A DNA stretch of 64,000 bases, from contig QHVT01000013.1 of the NCBI GenBank assembly GCA_003223645.1, positions 62,001-126,000 of the forward strand, in the 5' to 3' direction. The translations under genes and the position numbers were made by a program. Position 1 is the first letter of the stretch; each line of letters opens with the position of its first letter. Shown piece by piece: positions 7,188-64,000 of this stretch. Source of the DNA: Acidobacteriota bacterium (GTDB lineage: Bacteria > Acidobacteriota > Thermoanaerobaculia > Gp7-AA8). Under the pieces are notes generated by a model, which did not search any database, was not told where the DNA came from, and saw only the letters and a list, made by a program, of their open reading frames with translations.

Positions 7188-9746
<2,559 letters not shown>

Positions 9747-53876: not shown

Positions 53877-56800
53877 ATGATCGGCTGTTCTGGGAGGTGC
53901 GAATTGAGCGGACGTCACGCCCTCGTTCTGGGAATCTGTCTTCTGTTCGCCGCGGTCGACGTACATGCGCAGCAGTGCACGCGCACCGTGAAGGCGGATG
54001 TCGTCGCGATCGATCAGGCGTACTTCATCAATCGTCTCGGCACCGCGCGCCCCGGAGGGTTGCTCTTCGCGCTGCGCAGCGACGTCGAGTCGACGGATGC
54101 CGCGAATTCCGCGTTGCAGCCGGGGCGCGTGCAGTTGAAGTCGTACAAACGTCCGCGGCCCTTCGTGCTGCGCGCGAATGTCGGCGACTGCGTCGACATC
54201 AAGTTCCAGAACCTCCTCGCCAACAATCCCACCGATCCCGTGCAGCCGATGACGCGCAACGTGTCGCTGCACATCACCGGCATGTCCTTGCGCGAGTCGA
54301 TCGCCAGCGACGGCATGTGGGTCGGACAGAATCCTCCCGGCGCGACAGGCATGAGCGGCGACGTCGCGCCCGGCGCCTCGATCACCTACAAGTTGTATGC
54401 GAGCGCGGAAGGATCGTTCCTCATTTACTCGCAGCCGGGAGACTTCAACAACTTCGGCACGCAGCAGCTGACGATGGGACTCTTCGGCGCGCTGAACGTC
54501 GAGCCGGCGGGCGCGGAGTGGTATCGCAGTCAGGTCACGCAGTCCGATCTCGCGATGGCGACGAACGGTTCGTTCCCTGACGGACATCCGAAGATCAACT
54601 ACGACGCCGTTTATCCGCCGGGAAATCCGCGCGCGGGCAAGCCGATCCTGCGCATGCTCGACGCCGACAACAACGTCGCCCACAGCGATCTCACCGCCGT
54701 CATCACCGGTCCGCATCACGGACTCTTTCCCGGCGACGGCGGCAACAATCCGATCCTTCCGAATCGCAACTGGCCGTTCCGCGAAGTGACCGTCCACTAC
54801 CACGAGTCGCAGGACGTCGTGCAGGCGTGGGCGTACTTTTATCCGCAGAACAGCGGCGTCACCGCACACGTGCCGACCGTCAACGCCGGCTCCGACAGCT
54901 TCGCGATCAACTACGGACTCGGGGGCATCGCTCCCGAGATTTTGTCGAATCGCATTCGCATCGGTCCGTCCGCCGATTGTCCCGAATGCAAGTTCGAAGA
55001 GTTCTTCCTGAGCTCGTGGCCGCAGGGCGATCCCGGCATCGTGGTCGATGTCCCCGCGAACGCCGAGGTCTCGACGCCGTGTCAGTTCGACGCGCAGTTC
55101 CTCGGCGCGCCGTCCCTCGGCGGCGTGAGCCGTCCGTGCATGGAGTCGCGCAAACTCCCGACGAAGGCGTTCTATCCCGACGATCCGTCGAACGTCTATC
55201 ACTCCTACCTCGGCGATCACGTTCGCTTCCGCATCCTGCACGCCGGCGCGGCGGTCACGCACGTGCATCACCATCACGCGCATCAGTGGCTGCATTCGGG
55301 CACGGACCAGGACAGCAACTATCTCGACAGCCAGTCGATCGGGCCGGGTGCGTCGTTCACGCTCGAGCTGGTGTACGACGGCAGCGGCAATCGCAACCTC
55401 ACCGCCGGCGACTCGATCTTCCACTGCCACTTCTATCCGCACTTCGCGTCCGGCATGTGGGCGCTCTTCCGCGTGCACGACGTCTTCGAAGCGGGCACGC
55501 AGCTCGACGACGCGCAGCGCGCCGCATCCGGCGCGCGCGCGCTTCCCGATCCCGAGATCAAGACCGGCACGCCGATTCCCGCGATCGTTCCGCTGCCGAA
55601 CATGCCGATGGCGCCGCTGCCGTCGAAGGTCGAGATCGTCGACGGAAAGGTGAAGCTCGACGGCGACGGGTTCCCCGGCTATCCGTTCTACATCCCCGGC
55701 ATCCCCGGACATCGCGCGCCGCATCCGCCGCTGGACTTCGCCGTCGATCCGAAAACGAACGAGGCGTACGACGGAGGTCTGCCGCGCCATCTGATCACGG
55801 GCGCGGTCGTCTCCAACGAACAGCACACGCTCACCGATTGGAGCAAAGACCTGTCGAGCATCACCGCCTTCCAACTGCCGGAAGACGGCACGCCATCGGA
55901 GAAGCTGGCGATGTCGTTCTTCGGACAGCACCTGCATCCGAGCTACACGCAAAACGGCGCGGCGCAGCCGTTCAAGGTGAACGGACTGCCGCGCGGTCCG
56001 CAACACGGCGCGCCGTTCGCCGATCCGGCGGTCGACGACGGAAACGCAGTGGGGACCGAGGTACCGCCTTACCGAGGTGTCGATTTACAGGTCGATGCCG
56101 TCTTCAACAAGGCGGGATGGCACTATCCGCAGCAGCGCATGATGGCGCTCTGGCAGGACGTGAACGACTTCGTCACGAACAAGCGTCCGCCGGAGCCGCT
56201 GTTCTTCCGCGCCGCGGCGAACGACGTCATTGAGTACTGGCACACGAATCTCGTGCCGGCATACTTCGAGCTCGACGACTTCGAGGTCCGCACACCCACC
56301 GACATCCTCGGGCAGCACATCCACCTCGTGAAGTTCGATGTCACGTCATCCGACGGCGCAGCGAACGGCTTCAACTACGAAGACGGGACGTTCAGCCCGG
56401 AAGAAGTGCGCGTGCGGATCGATGCGATCAACGCGTCGGGCGGATTGTGGAACTACGCCAGGACGTCGCAGACGAAGCTCGCGCCGAAGACGATCGCCGA
56501 GCTCGGAAAAGGACCGGGCGAGCAGTGGGTGGGTGCACAAGCAACGGTGCAGCGCTGGTGGGTCGATCCGCTCATCGACACGCAGGGCACCGACCGCACC
56601 TACATGACGGTCTTTACGCACGATCACTTCGGACCGTCGACGCACCAGATGGTCGGCTTGTACGGCGGACTCCTCGTCGAGCCGCCGAACACGAAGTGGA
56701 CGTCGCTCGATGGCAAGACGCTCTTCCGCGACTGGACGAAACGCAATGACGGCGGACCGACGAGCTACGCCGCGAACATCCTCTACAAAAACGACGACCT

Positions 56801-59384
56801 GAAGAGACCGGCGAGCTATCGCGAGTTCGGCCTCCTCTGGGGCGACATGCAGTTCGTGTACAACTCCACGAGCCGCTCGCAGCCCGACTGCTATCCCGGC
56901 CAGACCTACAACTGTCTGCCCGTCGCGGACGGCGCGTCGTATCAAGGGTGGTCGGTGGTGAATGCGGCGAACGCGAATCCGGCGCCGCCGGTGCCGCAGA
57001 ACCCGATGCTCACCTGTTTTCAAAACTGCACGCCGCCCGCGGGCGCGCCGATCAGTCAGGCGACGCCGACGTATCCGGCGACGCCGTCGCCGTTCCTCAT
57101 CGGCGACTTCGGCGGCGCGTCGATCTCGATGAACTACCGCACCGAGCCGCTGCCGCTCCGCATCAGCGACGCAAACTGGAACCAGGCCGCCGGAACTGCG
57201 GGCGATCTCGCGTACGCGTTCGCGTCGATCCCGCGCGCGAACCCCGCGTTCAGCGTGCAGCCGGCAGGCGGATCGAAGATCAACTCCGCGTGCAGCGGCA
57301 GCTCCTGCTTCACCTTCCCGCAGGATCCGATCTCCGGCGGCATGCAGGCCACCGATCCGTACACGCCGCTCCTCGCCGGATACGAAGGCGACAACGTGCA
57401 GATCCGCCTCCTCTCCGGATCGCACACGTCGATGCACGACTTCAACATGCACGGACTGCGCTGGCTGTATCAGCCGTTCTCGACGAACTCCGGCTATCGC
57501 AACACGCAGTTCATCATTTTGTCCGAGCACTTCGAGACGTTGTTCCAGTTGCCGCAGATCAATGCGCAGGTCGCGGCCGACTATCTCTACAACCCGACCG
57601 CGTCCTACGAAGGATTGACGAACGGCATCTGGGGAATCCTGCGCTCGTTCAATCCGAGCCAACAACAAACGTTCCTCGCGCCGATCCGCACGGCGGTCGC
57701 AGCTCCAGCCGCGCCGCAACCGGTGGCGAACGCGAACTGCATATTGCCGCAGTCGTGCACGCGCAACTTCGAAGTGCACGTGAAGGTGGTGCCGCAGAAT
57801 GGTCTCGTCTACAACTCGCGCGGAATGAACCTCGCCGGCGGAGCGGGCACGAGTCCGCCGTTCGTCGATCCGTTCGCGATCGTCTACACGCTCGGCAATC
57901 AGCCGGTGAATCCCGCGACCGTGCAGCCGCTCGTCCTGCGCGCGCGCGCCGGCGACTGGATCCACGTCACGCTCGTCAACGATCTCACCGGCAACGAGCC
58001 GGTGTTCAATCCGTCGAACGCCGAATTCGCGAGCCGCTTCCAGCAGGTCCCGTACGCGTATCCGTACGCCGTGCAATTCAATCCGTCCGCGAGCGCGGGA
58101 CTGCACGCGCAGCTCGTCGACTACAACGTGACGACGAGCGACGGCGCGAACGTCGGCAACAATCCCGCGCAGACCGCGAAGCCGAACGGCGGCACCGCGG
58201 AGTATTGGTGGTACGCCGGGAAGATCGAAGGCAATACAGCGACGCCGGTCGAATTCGGCGCGGTGAACCTACTGCCGGCCGATCCGCTGATGCAGGTCTA
58301 TCACGGACTGTTCGGCGCGCTGGTGATCGAGCCGCAGGGATCGCGTTGGGTCGAAGACCCGCAGTCGCCCGCGTCAGCGACGGTGTTCAACGGCAACAAC
58401 GTCTACCGCGAGTTCGTGCTGATGGTGCAGGACGACGTGTCGATGTACGTGAACCAGCTGCCGTTCTACGCGGCGAACCCGCTGTCGGCAGTCAACTACA
58501 AAACCGAAGCCGCGGTCGGACGATACGGCGCGCTGCTGAACGGCGCGCTCGGACTCGCCGCGCCTCCGAACTGGACGAACCTTTCGTTGGCGGATCTGAA
58601 GTCCGCGTCGAACGTGCTTTGGTCGTCGGTCGACACGACGAAGATGACGGCGAACCAGCTCGTCGCCGGCGATCCGCAGACTCCGATCCTGCGTGCGCCC
58701 GCGGGCATGCCGGTGCGCATCCACACGCTCTCGCCCGGCGGCATCGGCGACAACCAGCAGTCGTTCGAGCTGACGGGACACGTCTGGCAGGAGACGCCGT
58801 ACACGAATGACTCCACGAAGATCGGCTACAACTCGAAGTCGTACTTCAGCGGATTGATCACCGGACTCGGACCGACTGCCGGATATCCGCTCGTCCTCGA
58901 GAACACGCCCGACGGCGGCGGCACGCCGGCCGGCGGCAAGTTCCGCATCGCCGGCGACTATCTGTATCGCAGCTGGATGGCGAATCAGTTCGACTCCGGA
59001 ATCTGGGGCATCTTCCGCGTCGCGCCGGCGACGGCGGGAGCGGGATTCCCCGACACCGTCGGCATCACGTCGATCAAACAGAACGGCACGAGCGGATATA
59101 CGGTCAGTGGATTCACGACCGTGTCGCCGCAGAACGGCAAATACGCCGCCTCCGTGACCTTCTCGTTCGGCGGGAAGGCGTCGGTGTCGAACGGATTGTG
59201 GAGTTACAGCGGTCGCGGCAACGCGCCGTCGTCCTTCACCGTGCGCTCGCCTCTCGGCGGCATCGCGACGTGGGGAGTCGAGAGCGTGCGACCGCTGGCG
59301 ATGGCGATGGAAGCCAAAGCGCCCGCGCCGATGCGCAGCGAGCCCGCGGTGCGGAAGGAGAAGAAGCCACGGCAACCGAAATGA
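53877..59384 (+). CDS. Giant secreted multicopper oxidase
   Basis: The 1835-residue product has a signal peptide ('HALVLGICLLFAAVDVHAQ') and a chain of cupredoxin-like domains. Copper ligands are visible as 'HVHHHHAHQW' (about residue 460), 'FHCHFYPHFASGMW' (about 515, the HCH-x3-H-x4-M motif joining type 1 and type 3 copper), 'FTHDHFGPSTHQ' (about 913), 'HTSMHDFNMHGLRW' (about 1182) and 'YHGLFGALVIEPQG' (about 1474). Usual laccases have 500-600 residues; large ones of the manganese-oxidase type (MnxG) have about 1200. It probably oxidises metal ions or organic substrates outside the cell. The stop overlaps the ATG of the next gene. Confidence 0.88.
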   Translation: MIGCSGRCELSGRHALVLGICLLFAAVDVHAQQCTRTVKADVVAIDQAYFINRLGTARPGGLLFALRSDVESTDAANSALQPGRVQLKSYKRPRPFVLRANVGDCVDIKFQNLLANNPTDPVQPMTRNVSLHITGMSLRESIASDGMWVGQNPPGATGMSGDVAPGASITYKLYASAEGSFLIYSQPGDFNNFGTQQLTMGLFGALNVEPAGAEWYRSQVTQSDLAMATNGSFPDGHPKINYDAVYPPGNPRAGKPILRMLDADNNVAHSDLTAVITGPHHGLFPGDGGNNPILPNRNWPFREVTVHYHESQDVVQAWAYFYPQNSGVTAHVPTVNAGSDSFAINYGLGGIAPEILSNRIRIGPSADCPECKFEEFFLSSWPQGDPGIVVDVPANAEVSTPCQFDAQFLGAPSLGGVSRPCMESRKLPTKAFYPDDPSNVYHSYLGDHVRFRILHAGAAVTHVHHHHAHQWLHSGTDQDSNYLDSQSIGPGASFTLELVYDGSGNRNLTAGDSIFHCHFYPHFASGMWALFRVHDVFEAGTQLDDAQRAASGARALPDPEIKTGTPIPAIVPLPNMPMAPLPSKVEIVDGKVKLDGDGFPGYPFYIPGIPGHRAPHPPLDFAVDPKTNEAYDGGLPRHLITGAVVSNEQHTLTDWSKDLSSITAFQLPEDGTPSEKLAMSFFGQHLHPSYTQNGAAQPFKVNGLPRGPQHGAPFADPAVDDGNAVGTEVPPYRGVDLQVDAVFNKAGWHYPQQRMMALWQDVNDFVTNKRPPEPLFFRAAANDVIEYWHTNLVPAYFELDDFEVRTPTDILGQHIHLVKFDVTSSDGAANGFNYEDGTFSPEEVRVRIDAINASGGLWNYARTSQTKLAPKTIAELGKGPGEQWVGAQATVQRWWVDPLIDTQGTDRTYMTVFTHDHFGPSTHQMVGLYGGLLVEPPNTKWTSLDGKTLFRDWTKRNDGGPTSYAANILYKNDDLKRPASYREFGLLWGDMQFVYNSTSRSQPDCYPGQTYNCLPVADGASYQGWSVVNAANANPAPPVPQNPMLTCFQNCTPPAGAPISQATPTYPATPSPFLIGDFGGASISMNYRTEPLPLRISDANWNQAAGTAGDLAYAFASIPRANPAFSVQPAGGSKINSACSGSSCFTFPQDPISGGMQATDPYTPLLAGYEGDNVQIRLLSGSHTSMHDFNMHGLRWLYQPFSTNSGYRNTQFIILSEHFETLFQLPQINAQVAADYLYNPTASYEGLTNGIWGILRSFNPSQQQTFLAPIRTAVAAPAAPQPVANANCILPQSCTRNFEVHVKVVPQNGLVYNSRGMNLAGGAGTSPPFVDPFAIVYTLGNQPVNPATVQPLVLRARAGDWIHVTLVNDLTGNEPVFNPSNAEFASRFQQVPYAYPYAVQFNPSASAGLHAQLVDYNVTTSDGANVGNNPAQTAKPNGGTAEYWWYAGKIEGNTATPVEFGAVNLLPADPLMQVYHGLFGALVIEPQGSRWVEDPQSPASATVFNGNNVYREFVLMVQDDVSMYVNQLPFYAANPLSAVNYKTEAAVGRYGALLNGALGLAAPPNWTNLSLADLKSASNVLWSSVDTTKMTANQLVAGDPQTPILRAPAGMPVRIHTLSPGGIGDNQQSFELTGHVWQETPYTNDSTKIGYNSKSYFSGLITGLGPTAGYPLVLENTPDGGGTPAGGKFRIAGDYLYRSWMANQFDSGIWGIFRVAPATAGAGFPDTVGITSIKQNGTSGYTVSGFTTVSPQNGKYAASVTFSFGGKASVSNGLWSYSGRGNAPSSFTVRSPLGGIATWGVESVRPLAMAMEAKAPAPMRSEPAVRKEKKPRQPK

Positions 59385-61141
59385 AGCGACTCGCTTGCGC
59401 TCTCGCTCTCGCGCTGCCGCTCGCGGCGCAGACGAATGTCGATCGCGGCATCGCGGTCCAGCTCGCTGTCTCGCCGCATGTCCTGCATGATGGAGATACC
59501 ATCCAGGTCCAATTTTCCCTCCGCGATGAAGCGACGAAGACGCCGCTGACGGGCGCGCATCCGGCCGCATGGCTCGCGCCGCGCACACGCGACTGCACCG
59601 CCAACGTCGCCCGCTTCCTGGGCGGCTCGATCGCCGATCGCGCGCCGGTCGACTTCAACAACTACTACGTCCTCGCGCTCAACGACGACGCGTCGATCAG
59701 CGTCGTCGACCCCCGCTTCAGCTTCGGCGGATCGCAGCTGCTCGCGATGATCCCCCTCGAGAGCCGCGGCGAAGACTGGGCGCTCGACGGCAACACGCTC
59801 TATGTCACGGAGCCCGCCGCCGGAAAAGTCGCAGTCATCGACACGACGACCTGGAAAGTCCGCGCGACCGTCAACGCGCCGCACGCCATGCGCGTGCAAG
59901 TGCACGACGCGCACGCGTGGATCGTTGGCGACGAGATCCTCGTGCTCGACGGCGACCGCGTGATCACGCGCATGCCCGGGAAAGAGATCGCGTTCGATGA
60001 CGCGCATACGGCATTCGTGATGAACGAGGACGGTGTGATTCGAGTTGACACGCGTGCGCTGTCGCCCCGCGGCGAGGAGAGCGGGCGTCCCGCCCGCCCC
60101 CGGGAGGCAGGCAAGATGCCCGCTCTCCTCGCCTGGTCCTCCTCCGCCCAAATGCTCTATGCCGCCGATCCCGACAGCGGCCGCGTCGTCGCAATCCGTC
60201 GCGGAAAAATCGCCGCCACCATCAACGCCACTTCCGGCTTCACGCAGCTCCGCTTCTCCGGCCGATTCGGCTTCCTCCCGAATCCGAAGAACAACATCGT
60301 CGAGATCATCGACGCCGCATCGAATCGCATCGTGCAGACCGCCGATGTTCCCGACGCTCCCGATCAGGTCACGTTCACGTCGACGCTCGCGTACATCCGC
60401 CGCCGCGGCAGCGACAGCGTGATGATGATTCCGCTGCAGAACGTCGGCGTGTCGGATGCGATCGGCGTCGCCGACTTCACCGGCGGGCAGCACGCGCTCG
60501 GCGCGGGGAAATTCGGCGCGCTTGCCGACTCGATCGTCGAAGCGCCCGACGGTCCCGCGGTGCTCGTCGCGAATCCGGCTGATCGCTCGATCTACTACTA
60601 CAAGGAAGGCATGGCCGCGCCGATGGGCGGCTTCAACAACGGCTCGCGCGAGCCGCGCGCCGTGCTCGTCGTCGATCGCAGCCTGCGCGAGAAATCGAAC
60701 GGCGTCTACGCGACGTCCGCGGTCGTCGAAGACGCCGGCAAGTACGACGTCGTCTTCTTCCTCGACTCGCCGCGCGTCGTCAGCTGCTTCCCGCTCGAAG
60801 TCGCCGAGCGTCCCGAAACGACCGCCAAGCGCGAGCACGCCGTCATCGTCGAGTCGCTCGCACCCGTCGTCGCCGCGCGCGCCGGCGCGCCCGCGCAACT
60901 CCGCTTCCGCATCACCGACGTTTCCACGCATCAAACGCGCGCCGCCGGCGAAGTCGAGATCGTCGTCATGGAGGCGCCCGGAGTCTGGCAACGCCGCACG
61001 ACCGCGATGCCGTCGCAGGACGGCACCTATGCGATCGAAATCACCCCGCCGTCGGCCGGGACGTACTACGCCTGGATTGCCTCAGCCGCCGCCGGACTCC
61101 CGATCAACAACCCCTATTTCATTCGGTTCGAGGTGGACTGA
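59381..61141 (+). CDS. Secreted beta-propeller protein of the oxidase operon
   Basis: The 586-residue product has a signal peptide ('MKRLACALALALPLAAQ') and a beta-propeller of YVTN/cytochrome-D1 type ('NNYYVLALNDDASISVVDPR', 'GNTLYVTEPAAGKVAVIDTT', 'QMLYAADPDSGRVVAIRRGK', 'NNIVEIIDAASNRIVQTADV'), then a C-terminal Ig-like domain. No heme-binding motif is seen. A hairpin element is translated in frame at residues about 230-251. It overlaps the multicopper-oxidase gene by four bases and the next gene by one, so the three are translationally coupled. It may be a scaffold or docking partner for the oxidases. Confidence 0.85.
   Translation: MKRLACALALALPLAAQTNVDRGIAVQLAVSPHVLHDGDTIQVQFSLRDEATKTPLTGAHPAAWLAPRTRDCTANVARFLGGSIADRAPVDFNNYYVLALNDDASISVVDPRFSFGGSQLLAMIPLESRGEDWALDGNTLYVTEPAAGKVAVIDTTTWKVRATVNAPHAMRVQVHDAHAWIVGDEILVLDGDRVITRMPGKEIAFDDAHTAFVMNEDGVIRVDTRALSPRGEESGRPARPREAGKMPALLAWSSSAQMLYAADPDSGRVVAIRRGKIAATINATSGFTQLRFSGRFGFLPNPKNNIVEIIDAASNRIVQTADVPDAPDQVTFTSTLAYIRRRGSDSVMMIPLQNVGVSDAIGVADFTGGQHALGAGKFGALADSIVEAPDGPAVLVANPADRSIYYYKEGMAAPMGGFNNGSREPRAVLVVDRSLREKSNGVYATSAVVEDAGKYDVVFFLDSPRVVSCFPLEVAERPETTAKREHAVIVESLAPVVAARAGAPAQLRFRITDVSTHQTRAAGEVEIVVMEAPGVWQRRTTAMPSQDGTYAIEITPPSAGTYYAWIASAAAGLPINNPYFIRFEVD
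60071..60132. repeat. Hairpin element inside the beta-propeller gene
   Basis: GGCGAGGAGAGCGGGCGTCC (left) and GATGCCCGCTCTCCTCGCC (right) form the stem. It reads in frame as 'GEESGRPARPREAGKMPALL'. Intergenic relatives are at 13866-13922 and 37503-37557. Confidence 0.88.
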
Positions 61142-64000
61142 TGGCAACGGCCCGCAGGAAGAAGAAGCAGAAGGAGACACAGGAGAAGCCGATGAGCGAT
61201 GACAACACGAAAAAGCCTTTCGATCCAAATGACGTTGCGTACTGCAAGATCCATCCGGGAATCGGCATCGCTCGCGTCGGCGACAGTCTTGACGGATTCT
61301 TCATCGGGCCGGAAACGCCGGGCGAGATGGTGCATCCCGTCGGCGGATTCAAGGACGAGCACGGCCGCATCAAACGCCAGGCCGCGCGCTTCCGCGTCTA
61401 CGCGTACAACGCGGCTGGCGAAGCGATCTACGAGCTCACCGCAAATGACGCCGACATTAACTGGAGCGTCCAGCTCGCGAACAAGAAGGCGAGCTATCGC
61501 ATCTTCCTCGGCCGTTACTGGGACATTCAGTATCCCGACGTGAAGAAATACGCCGACGAGCACTTCGGCGGACAGCCGCCGATGCGCAATCAGGAAGTGA
61601 GCGTGAACGATCCCGAACAGCGCTCGCAGCTCCTCGACATCCGTCCCGAGGCGCGCACGATCGGCGGGAGAAACGAGAAGGGCACCAAGTACGAGCTGAC
61701 CGGCTCGTTCGGTCCGCTCAAATATACCGTCGCCAGCGCAGACGTCACGATCGACGGCAAGGACGTCTCCAATCAGAATGTACTGCTCGGAACCCGCAGC
61801 GGCTTCATGAACGTGCCGTTCGTCGATCCGACGCAGCCCGACCTCACCAAGCAGTTTCAGGAGGCGGCGAAGCAGTACAAATGGGTGCCCGGCGTGATGC
61901 AGGAGCCGATCGCGGAATCGGGCTCGGCGCAGGTCTACCTCGGCGAGCTGCGCACCGACGCCCACGGACGTCTCCTCGTCCTCGGCGGCCGCGGCGAGTC
62001 GCGCTCGCTCATCCCCGACAACGACGTCGGCTTCCTCAACAACGACGACTACTTCGGCAGCAACGACTATTGGTATGACGACGTCAGCGACGGCGTCGTG
62101 GGCGCCGAGGTCACGTTGAAGGACGGACGCCGCGTCGAAGTGAAAGCGAAGTCGTGGGTGCTCTGCGTGCCGCCGAAGTTCGCGCCCGACTTCGAGTGCC
62201 TCACCACGCTGAAGGATCAGAGCGATCAGGTCGCGCAGAACAAAGGTCAGATTCCCGCGCAGACCGAAGTCTCCTTCAAGGATGACATCTATCCGATTCT
62301 TCTCCGCCTCAATCACTACCAGTGGGTGAACCAGTTCGCGCTGCAGCAGCACGGCAACGGCATGGTCTTCGATCCGCTGAGCCAGGGACCGGGAACCGCG
62401 AACATCTTCCCGAAGCTCCACGAAAAGAGCGGGAAGGACGGCGGCACGGATGCCAACGCCGAGATGCGCATGCACGTCTTCAAACGCATGCGCAAACCGA
62501 TTGCGGTGCTGCAGGCCGAACATCCCGACATGCCGTTCGATGAGTTGATCGTTTCGCCGTACGCGGACGAACAGTCCGGCATGGCCAAGATGCCGCAGAT
62601 GTGGGGCGACGGCGGCGACGGTCTCGATCCGGTCGGCAAGGTCCTGGAGGATCCGACCGAGCAGACCAATCCCGGCCAGGGCATTCCCGGCGGCACGTAC
62701 GTCACCTGGGCCACGCTCACGCAGCGGCAATACAACGCGATGCGCTTGTGGGCCGAAGGTAAATTTGTTGACGATTGGCCGCACGGACGCAGTCCGCTCG
62801 ATGCGCCGAAGTCGCTTCCGACCGCAAAGTTGCCGATCAAAGAGCAGCCGGTGTCACTCGACAACGCCGCGATGCTGCCGTGCGTCGGCGCGCCGTTCTT
62901 CCCCGGCATCGAGCTCACGTACATCTGCGAAAACTCCGACTTCTGGGCCGAGCTCGGACGTCCCGACTGGCGCAACATGGAGCCGGGCGACGTGATCCGT
63001 CACATGGCGCTCCCGTGGCAGGCCGACTTCTCGGAATGCAATCACCGCTGGTGGCCGGTTGCGCGTCCCGACGACATCGTGACCGAGGCGCAATACGAGG
63101 ACGTCCTTCGGAACTACGACCCGACACTCGACGGTCCGCTGCAGGCCGTCCTCGCCGGCCGCACCGAGTGGGCGCGCGGCATCCCGCAGGTTTCGCCTGG
63201 CCTCGACAACGGCATGGTCGCGCACTGGAGCGAGTTCGGCTTCATCGTGCCGCGCACGGTCCACGGTGACACCGTCTACGTCGAAACGGATCGCGATCCG
63301 TACGCCGGCTGCTCGGAGCGCGACGCGTTCTATTACCTGATGAACATCGCCGACTATCCGGCCTTCGAGCCGCATGCGAGGCTGATGGTCGAGCAGTACC
63401 TCGCACAGGCGCGGCAGAACGCCAGCGATCCGCAGACCGTGAATCTCTTCGGCATGTACGGCTGGAACTACTTCCAGTACACGCCGGAAGCGTTCGACGC
63501 GCGCATGCAGGACATCTACAACCAATACGTCCTCGCCAACGCCAACGCGAGCTATCTGTCGAACACCACCTACGAGTACCAGCGTTACCTGCAGATCCAG
63601 CTCGCGCCGTTCAATCAGCTCGACGGCACGTGGATTCGCCAGGCCGGACCTCCGGGAACGGTCGACCAGGTGCGCAATCTTCTTTTCCAGATCTACATGG
63701 ATGAACTGGGCGACGCGATCGTCGAGCACAACCATGCAAACGTCTACACCGACACCTTGCACAACCTGAATTTCTATCCGTACGACATGCAGACCCGCGA
63801 CTACGCGAACGACTCGCGGTTCCTCGACTCCGCGTTCACGGAGCCGGTGTTCCTGTTGGCGATCTCCAACTTCACCGAGGACTATCTGCCGGAGATTCTC
63901 GGCATGACGCTGTATCTCGAATGGTCGTCAGTCGGTCTCGCGATCACCGTCGCTACGCTCGAGTCCCTCGGCATGGATCCGTCGTACTACCGGCTGCACG
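61141..64000 (+). CDS. LodA-like quinoprotein fused to heme-oxygenase-like diiron domain (3' end outside window)
   Basis: At least 953 residues, open at the window edge. Residues about 25-720 are a LodA-family oxidase: 'KIHPGIGIARVGDS', 'DGFFIGPETPG', 'PCVGAPFFPGIEL' (Cys581) and 'ADFSECNHRWWPVARPD' (Trp637/638), where Cys and Trp could form the cysteine-tryptophylquinone of LodA/GoxA. From about 735 a different domain begins: 'MDELGDAIVEHNHANVYTDT' (Glu855, His863/865, His874) and 'AISNFTEDYLPEILGMTLYL' with Glu918/927, the ligand pattern of heme-oxygenase-like diiron oxidases. LodA alone has about 726 residues. No signal peptide is seen; a LodB-type flavoprotein would be expected downstream. 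Confidence 0.85.
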   Translation, partial: MATARRKKKQKETQEKPMSDDNTKKPFDPNDVAYCKIHPGIGIARVGDSLDGFFIGPETPGEMVHPVGGFKDEHGRIKRQAARFRVYAYNAAGEAIYELTANDADINWSVQLANKKASYRIFLGRYWDIQYPDVKKYADEHFGGQPPMRNQEVSVNDPEQRSQLLDIRPEARTIGGRNEKGTKYELTGSFGPLKYTVASADVTIDGKDVSNQNVLLGTRSGFMNVPFVDPTQPDLTKQFQEAAKQYKWVPGVMQEPIAESGSAQVYLGELRTDAHGRLLVLGGRGESRSLIPDNDVGFLNNDDYFGSNDYWYDDVSDGVVGAEVTLKDGRRVEVKAKSWVLCVPPKFAPDFECLTTLKDQSDQVAQNKGQIPAQTEVSFKDDIYPILLRLNHYQWVNQFALQQHGNGMVFDPLSQGPGTANIFPKLHEKSGKDGGTDANAEMRMHVFKRMRKPIAVLQAEHPDMPFDELIVSPYADEQSGMAKMPQMWGDGGDGLDPVGKVLEDPTEQTNPGQGIPGGTYVTWATLTQRQYNAMRLWAEGKFVDDWPHGRSPLDAPKSLPTAKLPIKEQPVSLDNAAMLPCVGAPFFPGIELTYICENSDFWAELGRPDWRNMEPGDVIRHMALPWQADFSECNHRWWPVARPDDIVTEAQYEDVLRNYDPTLDGPLQAVLAGRTEWARGIPQVSPGLDNGMVAHWSEFGFIVPRTVHGDTVYVETDRDPYAGCSERDAFYYLMNIADYPAFEPHARLMVEQYLAQARQNASDPQTVNLFGMYGWNYFQYTPEAFDARMQDIYNQYVLANANASYLSNTTYEYQRYLQIQLAPFNQLDGTWIRQAGPPGTVDQVRNLLFQIYMDELGDAIVEHNHANVYTDTLHNLNFYPYDMQTRDYANDSRFLDSAFTEPVFLLAISNFTEDYLPEILGMTLYLEWSSVGLAITVATLESLGMDPSYYRLH

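Follow-up and report, generated by a model that had tools for sequence, protein, structure and literature searches.

A recurrent fusion of a LodA-type quinone oxidase with a heme-oxygenase-like diiron domain in an acidobacterium and other bacteria

What could two oxidative centres, one built on a protein-derived quinone and the other on a predicted non-heme diiron site, do within a single polypeptide chain? The question is raised by a gene at the end of a 64,000-nucleotide stretch of acidobacterial DNA, hereafter called the window (G000:C15:62001-126000, G000 being the window's genome). The gene lies on the plus strand at 61141..64000, where it encodes residues 1-953 of a 1308-residue protein, and continues beyond the window to 65067 (L003:3141-7067). 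From the letters of the window, the original prediction had described it as a fusion of a LodA-like oxidase with a heme-oxygenase-like diiron (HDO) domain. Because the window ends at H953, only four of the domain's six canonical metal ligands could be seen in it.

The reading frame is continuous. Translation of the contig meets no in-frame stop from 61141 through the window end until the stop codon at L003:7067, which corresponds to 65067 in window numbering. The predicted passage from the LodA signature (ADFSECNHRWWP, residues 628-639) into the HDO motifs (MDELGDAIVEHNHANVYTDT, residues 853-872, and PEILGMTLYLEW, residues 917-928) is borne out, and the C-terminus that the window had cut off was recovered from the contig, with the HDO ligands D957 and H963 lying past the window end. 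Three Pfam families match the protein above their curated cut-offs, namely LodA_N (residues 38-342, E 1.9e-58), LodA_C (residues 522-644, E 6e-25) and Haem_oxygenas_2 (PF14518, residues 817-987, E 7.8e-17), and the fusion exceeds the length of LodA by about 580 residues. The genome carries, on a different contig, a second LodA-HDO gene of this architecture (P0002; L004:5669-9484 on G000:C25; 1271 aa), whose product is 54% identical to the window protein over the C-terminal part. This paralogue and the fusions in other genomes rule out an assembly artefact or chimera; together with the independent fusions, which bring the family to 39 LodA-HDO proteins in seven phyla, it also excludes a frame error between the two parts.

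The N-terminal half is a LodA-type domain in which the residues of the cysteine tryptophylquinone (CTQ) cofactor are complete. The Pfam domains LodA_N (PF17990) and LodA_C (PF18417) are encoded on the plus strand at 61252..62166 and 62704..63072, and the CTQ site, with the catalytic Asp D629 four residues ahead of C633 and with W638, at 63025..63054. In phmmer alignments to the PDB sequences of LodA (3weu) and GoxA, these three residues correspond to LodA D512, C516 and W581 (the second Trp of YWWP); C516 and W581 are the quinone-forming residues of LodA (PMC4417212). The motif D-x3-C followed by Trp-Pro is kept in all 39 fused LodA domains. The spacing from Cys to Trp, which is 65 in LodA, is 5 in the window protein and the rest of the main fused lineage, and 19 in a second lineage. 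At the pocket position before PGIE, where GoxA has His583 and LodA has Cys, the main fused lineage has Tyr or Phe, so that glycine and lysine are both improbable as substrates. The window protein stays below the NCBIfam equivalog cut-offs for the lysine 6-oxidase LodA (169.6 against 600 bits) and the glycine oxidase GoxA (277.6 against 750 bits).

What the fusion shares with the CTQ-dependent amino acid oxidases LodA (3weu, 2ymw) and GoxA (6byw) is the fold, the Cys, Trp and Asp of the CTQ site, and an adjoining LodB-type maturase. The common fold is seen in a relative, L022, whose full-length model (pTM 0.69) matches GoxA with a Z score of 43 over residues 13-569 and LodA with a Z score of 40.5. 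The gene for the LodB-type flavoprotein maturase (L003:7067-8089) overlaps the stop codon of the fusion gene, and its product matches NCBIfam LodB (E 1.6e-73) and GoxB (2.5e-73), both under the equivalog cut-off. LodB adjoins 34 of the 39 fusions; four of the remaining five are cut by a contig end, and the fifth is P0002, around which no LodB gene is present within the 16 kb read. The maturation of P0002 may depend on the LodB of the window locus.

Judged by its sequence and by the modelled fold of a relative, the C-terminal half belongs to the N-oxygenase branch of the HDOs, and its predicted set of diiron ligands is complete. The Pfam match to the HDO domain starts at 63589 and runs past the window end (63589..64000, plus strand), while the whole fold begins near residue 724 (63310), as indicated by the model of relative L019, which aligns from its residue 1. 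In the alignment of family proteins the six predicted ligands E855, H865, E927, H953, D957 and H963 are invariant (46 of 46 rows), and D828, a probable extra carboxylate ligand, is kept in 45 rows, the last row having a gap. On the plus strand D828 is encoded at 63622..63624, E855 and H865 within 63703..63735, E927 at 63919..63921 and H953 at 63997..63999, with D957 and H963 outside the window (L003). The ligands of SznF are E189, E215, H225, E281, H311, D315 and H318. In the SznF profile alignment all six predicted ligands, three His and three carboxylates, face a Glu, His or Asp of that protein, as does D828. Among those inside the window, D828 stands opposite E189, with Asp where SznF has Glu, E855 and H865 opposite E215 and H225, E927 opposite E281, and H953 opposite H311. 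A 3H/4C ligand set has been described for SznF-type HDO N-oxygenases (PMC13108848). When a profile of 41 sequences was compared with PDB sequences, SznF was matched at E 0.003, and the E-values for RohS were 0.013 to 0.08.

The heme-oxygenase-like core that had been expected of this domain, with the seven helices of the heme oxygenase fold, is present in the AlphaFold2 model of L019, a Bradyrhizobium protein 52% identical to the window protein (mean pLDDT 87.6). VIA-align places this model closest to RohS (Z 21.4, rmsd 3.5, 262 aligned), HrmI (20.8) and SznF (20.2); other HDOs score lower (FlcD 16.5, CADD 14.4, UndA 13.1, BesC 12.9, AetD 11.1). Foldseek returns E-values of 0.0045 and above for the same model, and in the full-length model of L022 the scores for RohS, HrmI and SznF are about 21-22 over residues 568-865. 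Pfam, the SznF profile alignment and the confident model of a relative concur in the reading of a LodA-like oxidase joined to an HDO-type domain with its full ligand set. Identity to the N-oxygenases is 13-15%, the likeness being one of fold and ligands, so the reaction could differ from N-oxygenation.

With SznF, RohS and HrmI the fusion HDO shares fold, ligand order, the spacing of the first Glu-His pair (E+10) and probably an extra carboxylate ligand such as SznF-type enzymes have on the auxiliary helix (E189 in SznF, here Asp); it differs in being joined to LodA and in having no cupin such as SznF carries. A further difference concerns ligand helix a3, where the canonical H-x3-D-x2-H of SznF is replaced by H-x3-D-x5-H, with five residues rather than two from D957 to H963. 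The longer motif is found in 51 of 51 domains, whether fused, solo or double. The helix of the L019 model is interrupted exactly at the insertion (helix 240-248, loop 249-254, helix 255-274), and this break in the third ligand helix might change the diiron centre or even do away with it. The third PF14518 protein of the window's genome, closely related to CADD-type 4-aminobenzoate synthases, has the canonical H-x3-D-x2-H. A CADD/NePabS-like 4-aminobenzoate synthase is encoded in the same genome at L093:5617-6132 (G000:C6; E 4e-37 to 9pj4).

The HDO is followed by repeats of the form PG-x-P-x-x-S ... GPM ... W-x-x-W, which give weak matches to the planctomycete cytochrome c family PSCyt1 in 2 of 41 members. 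Heme binding by these repeats was rejected, the PSCyt1 matches being weak and the CxxCH heme motif being absent from every fusion. Beyond residue 313 of the C-terminal model, Foldseek and VIA find no match. Most of the proteins, including solo relatives, end in a C-terminal G-x-G-x-x-H.

The architecture itself is not new. A survey of 2015 lists five proteins combining LodA with pfam14518 (Campillo-Brocal et al., PMC4417212, Table 3); it names the pfam14518 part an N-terminal iron-containing redox enzyme, and offers no HDO reading, no metal ligands, no likeness to N-oxygenases and no function. In two proteins of that table, from Calothrix sp. PCC 7103 (L036) and Paenibacillus pinihumi DSM 23905 (L044), the HDO is found to be C-terminal, not N-terminal. 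A heme domain of catalase fold is the fusion partner in some other LodA proteins (PMC4417212). No paper combining heme oxygenase-like with tryptophylquinone was found in a searched literature that omits most subscription journals. The window protein thus has an architecture that was on record but had not been interpreted. What the present analysis adds is its reading as an HDO fusion, the changed spacing of the ligands, the likeness to N-oxygenases and the twofold origin.

How widespread is this architecture, and did it arise once? A scan of 84,980 species genomes with four query sequences yielded 41 loci; an earlier scan of genome contigs with two query sequences had given no match. The scan loci, a Paraburkholderia caribensis plasmid and the window's genome together provide the 39 LodA-HDO proteins, distributed among Pseudomonadota, Actinomycetota, Acidobacteriota, Cyanobacteriota, Bacillota, Bacteroidota and Planctomycetota. 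The domain order is LodA then HDO in every one of them. LodA_N occurs in 9 of 396 sampled genomes of the window's phylum and the fusion in two of those nine, while an HDO domain is present in none of 17 control LodA proteins.

The histories of the two domains do not coincide. In the LodA tree the fused proteins fall into two groups, a main one and a distant one (motif PWHTDYNSC), with unfused proteins between them, whereas the HDO tree nests the distant group next to the main one. Identities follow the same pattern: between the lineages they are 46% for HDO and 32% for LodA, and within the main lineage 48% and 47%, respectively. The LodA and HDO identities of the main group correlate (r 0.85), as expected if both domains evolve together there. 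The presence of the same HDO module on two distant LodA lineages suggests that the two domains were joined, or the module transferred, on at least two occasions. One inherited fusion is rejected as the simplest history, since the two trees disagree; a single old fusion followed by many losses and domain swaps is a possible alternative. Taken together, sequence and models place both predicted folds and both sets of cofactor residues in one chain, in constant order and after at least two joinings.

In the window, the fusion gene comes third in a series of overlapping genes that runs from a multicopper-oxidase-like protein through a propeller-like protein and the LodA-HDO protein to LodB. The first is an exported protein of 1835 aa (53877..59384, plus strand) whose weak Cu-oxidase_2/3 matches fall just below the cut-off; the second is an exported beta-propeller-like protein (59381..61141, plus strand), the stop codon of which overlaps the LodA-HDO start and which matches the methylamine dehydrogenase heavy chain weakly (Pfam E 0.0046, below cut-off). 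These two upstream genes recur in Bradyrhizobium (L019), Massilia (L020) and Acidobacteriaceae (L024). Among 63 neighbours sampled across the family, drawn from about 2-5 kb around the fusions and including some frames that may be spurious, there is no conserved partner except LodB and no conserved reductase. Downstream of LodB, at L003:about 8180-9389, a SCO1/SenC-like protein was read by eye running into a CAGCH cytochrome c segment, and SCO1/SenC is also found near two other fusions.

HDO modules of this kind also exist outside LodA fusions, and the stand-alone homologues sought for the domain were found in Cylindrospermum (L057), Mycobacterium (L040) and Geodermatophilaceae (L027), the latter two with the module alone. 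In the cyanobacterium Cylindrospermum the solo HDO is encoded in a lanthipeptide-type cluster, with a LanM synthetase, a Nif11-leader protein and an FGE-type enzyme around it (L057:415-7457), and it may be a peptide modifier. In Nitrospira moscoviensis the partner of the module is a Ycf48-like BNR propeller, and the neighbouring gene encodes an exported deaminase-like protein (L059:3420-6560). Proteins with two HDO copies, from plasmids and from G032 (L012-L015, L017), resemble the fusion in the H-x3-D-N-x4-H of their second copy and in the linker after the first copy, which matches the module following the HDO of the fusion; they are without LodA and are encoded near genes for a carbamoyltransferase, a SidA-type monooxygenase or an acyl-CoA dehydrogenase. 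Two further LodA arrangements were seen: on the minus strand of L087:5372-10906 (G260), a LodA domain ends an open frame of 1845 aa whose first 1200 residues have no Pfam match, and on a Hymenobacter plasmid (L081) a LodA-like gene lies two genes past an annotated ferritin-like protein, another iron-type LodA neighbour.

DtpC of Acinetobacter baumannii, which is an HDO by its predicted fold and has a Glu/His pair of E+10 spacing, keeps H2O2 low in drying cells and needs its metal ligands to do so (PMC13232832). It is likened to the fusion HDO through its published description, and differs from it in not being joined to LodA.

We infer that the HDO domain binds iron and that the chain holds two active centres coupled to each other. 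The function proposed is that of a single-chain enzyme with two coupled oxidative centres, a LodA-type CTQ oxidase and an HDO of the N-oxygenase branch, a reading to which we give an even chance. The neighbouring LodB-like flavoprotein would mature the LodA domain by forming cysteine tryptophylquinone, and the quinone domain would then oxidise a primary amine with O2, giving an aldehyde, ammonia and H2O2. The diiron site could use the H2O2 from the quinone site as a ready-made peroxide, or remove it; alternatively, it could N-oxygenate the same amine substrate. The favoured form of coupling is that the diiron site takes what the quinone site leaves at hand, and coupling through H2O2 or through a shared amine, taken together, is about as likely as not. 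The recurrence of the join in dozens of unrelated bacteria suggests that the two domains probably work as a pair.

A more specific explanation, less likely than not, is a quinone and diiron relay: the quinone domain would supply H2O2 or an oxidised amine to its own diiron domain, no reductase would be needed, and the arrangement would have arisen at least twice. For the single-chain enzyme with two coupled centres in general speak the lack of a conserved reductase among the neighbours, the link of DtpC to H2O2 and the catalase-fold LodA fusions. Against that general reading count the low identity to known N-oxygenases and the broken ligand helix, as well as the usual dependence of HDO N-oxygenases on O2 together with a source of electrons.

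A sequence of two reactions in which H2O2 plays no role is a rival of some plausibility, though doubtful: the HDO would N-oxygenate an amine or amino acid that the quinone domain also oxidises, or the order would be the reverse, with an oxime, a nitro compound or a carbonyl as product. The closest folds do N-oxygenate amines (RohS; HrmI on lysine; SznF on an arginine), the primary amines of amino acids are what LodA-type enzymes oxidise (PMC4417212), and the Paraburkholderia locus L011 has genes for a methyltransferase and an opine-type dehydrogenase close by. However, the family is without conserved biosynthetic neighbours, and the window gene is flanked by exported oxidases rather than by a biosynthetic cluster.

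It is unlikely that the HDO merely removes H2O2 or binds metal, protecting the quinone oxidase and forming no oxygenated product. LodA proteins release H2O2, other members carry the catalase-fold domain, and DtpC restrains H2O2 in drying cells; yet DtpC gave no defence against acute H2O2, and the HDOs known so far act on organic substrates, as oxygenases or oxidases.

The original prediction had offered, as an example, that a single amino-acid side chain is modified twice. That both centres act in this way on a protein or peptide now appears improbable. The Cylindrospermum solo HDO lends it some colour by its company of LanM, a Nif11 leader-type protein and an FGE-type enzyme, but no conserved precursor peptide or peptide-processing gene accompanies the 39 fusions (peptidases occur at few loci), and LodB already explains the sole known protein-side-chain chemistry at the locus. 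Peptide modification as a general role was rejected, the sampled neighbours containing no conserved peptide partner. A catalytically silent HDO, serving as scaffold or secretion add-on, is equally improbable: the three-residue insertion that breaks helix a3, the cytochrome c-like repeats and the conserved C-terminal tail would suit structural roles, but six ligands invariant in 46 very diverged rows would not be needed by a silent domain.

The preferred reading, coupled quinone and diiron centres, would have consequences beyond this locus. Should both centres work, the fusion would be the first case of a protein-derived quinone and a non-heme diiron site sharing a single enzyme chain, and would provide a natural test of how electrons or peroxide are supplied to diiron oxygenases. 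The recurrence of the HDO on two LodA lineages, together with the parallel catalase-fold fusions, suggests a general need for iron chemistry beside LodA, and the LodA-HDO family offers dozens of homologues for work on structure and activity.
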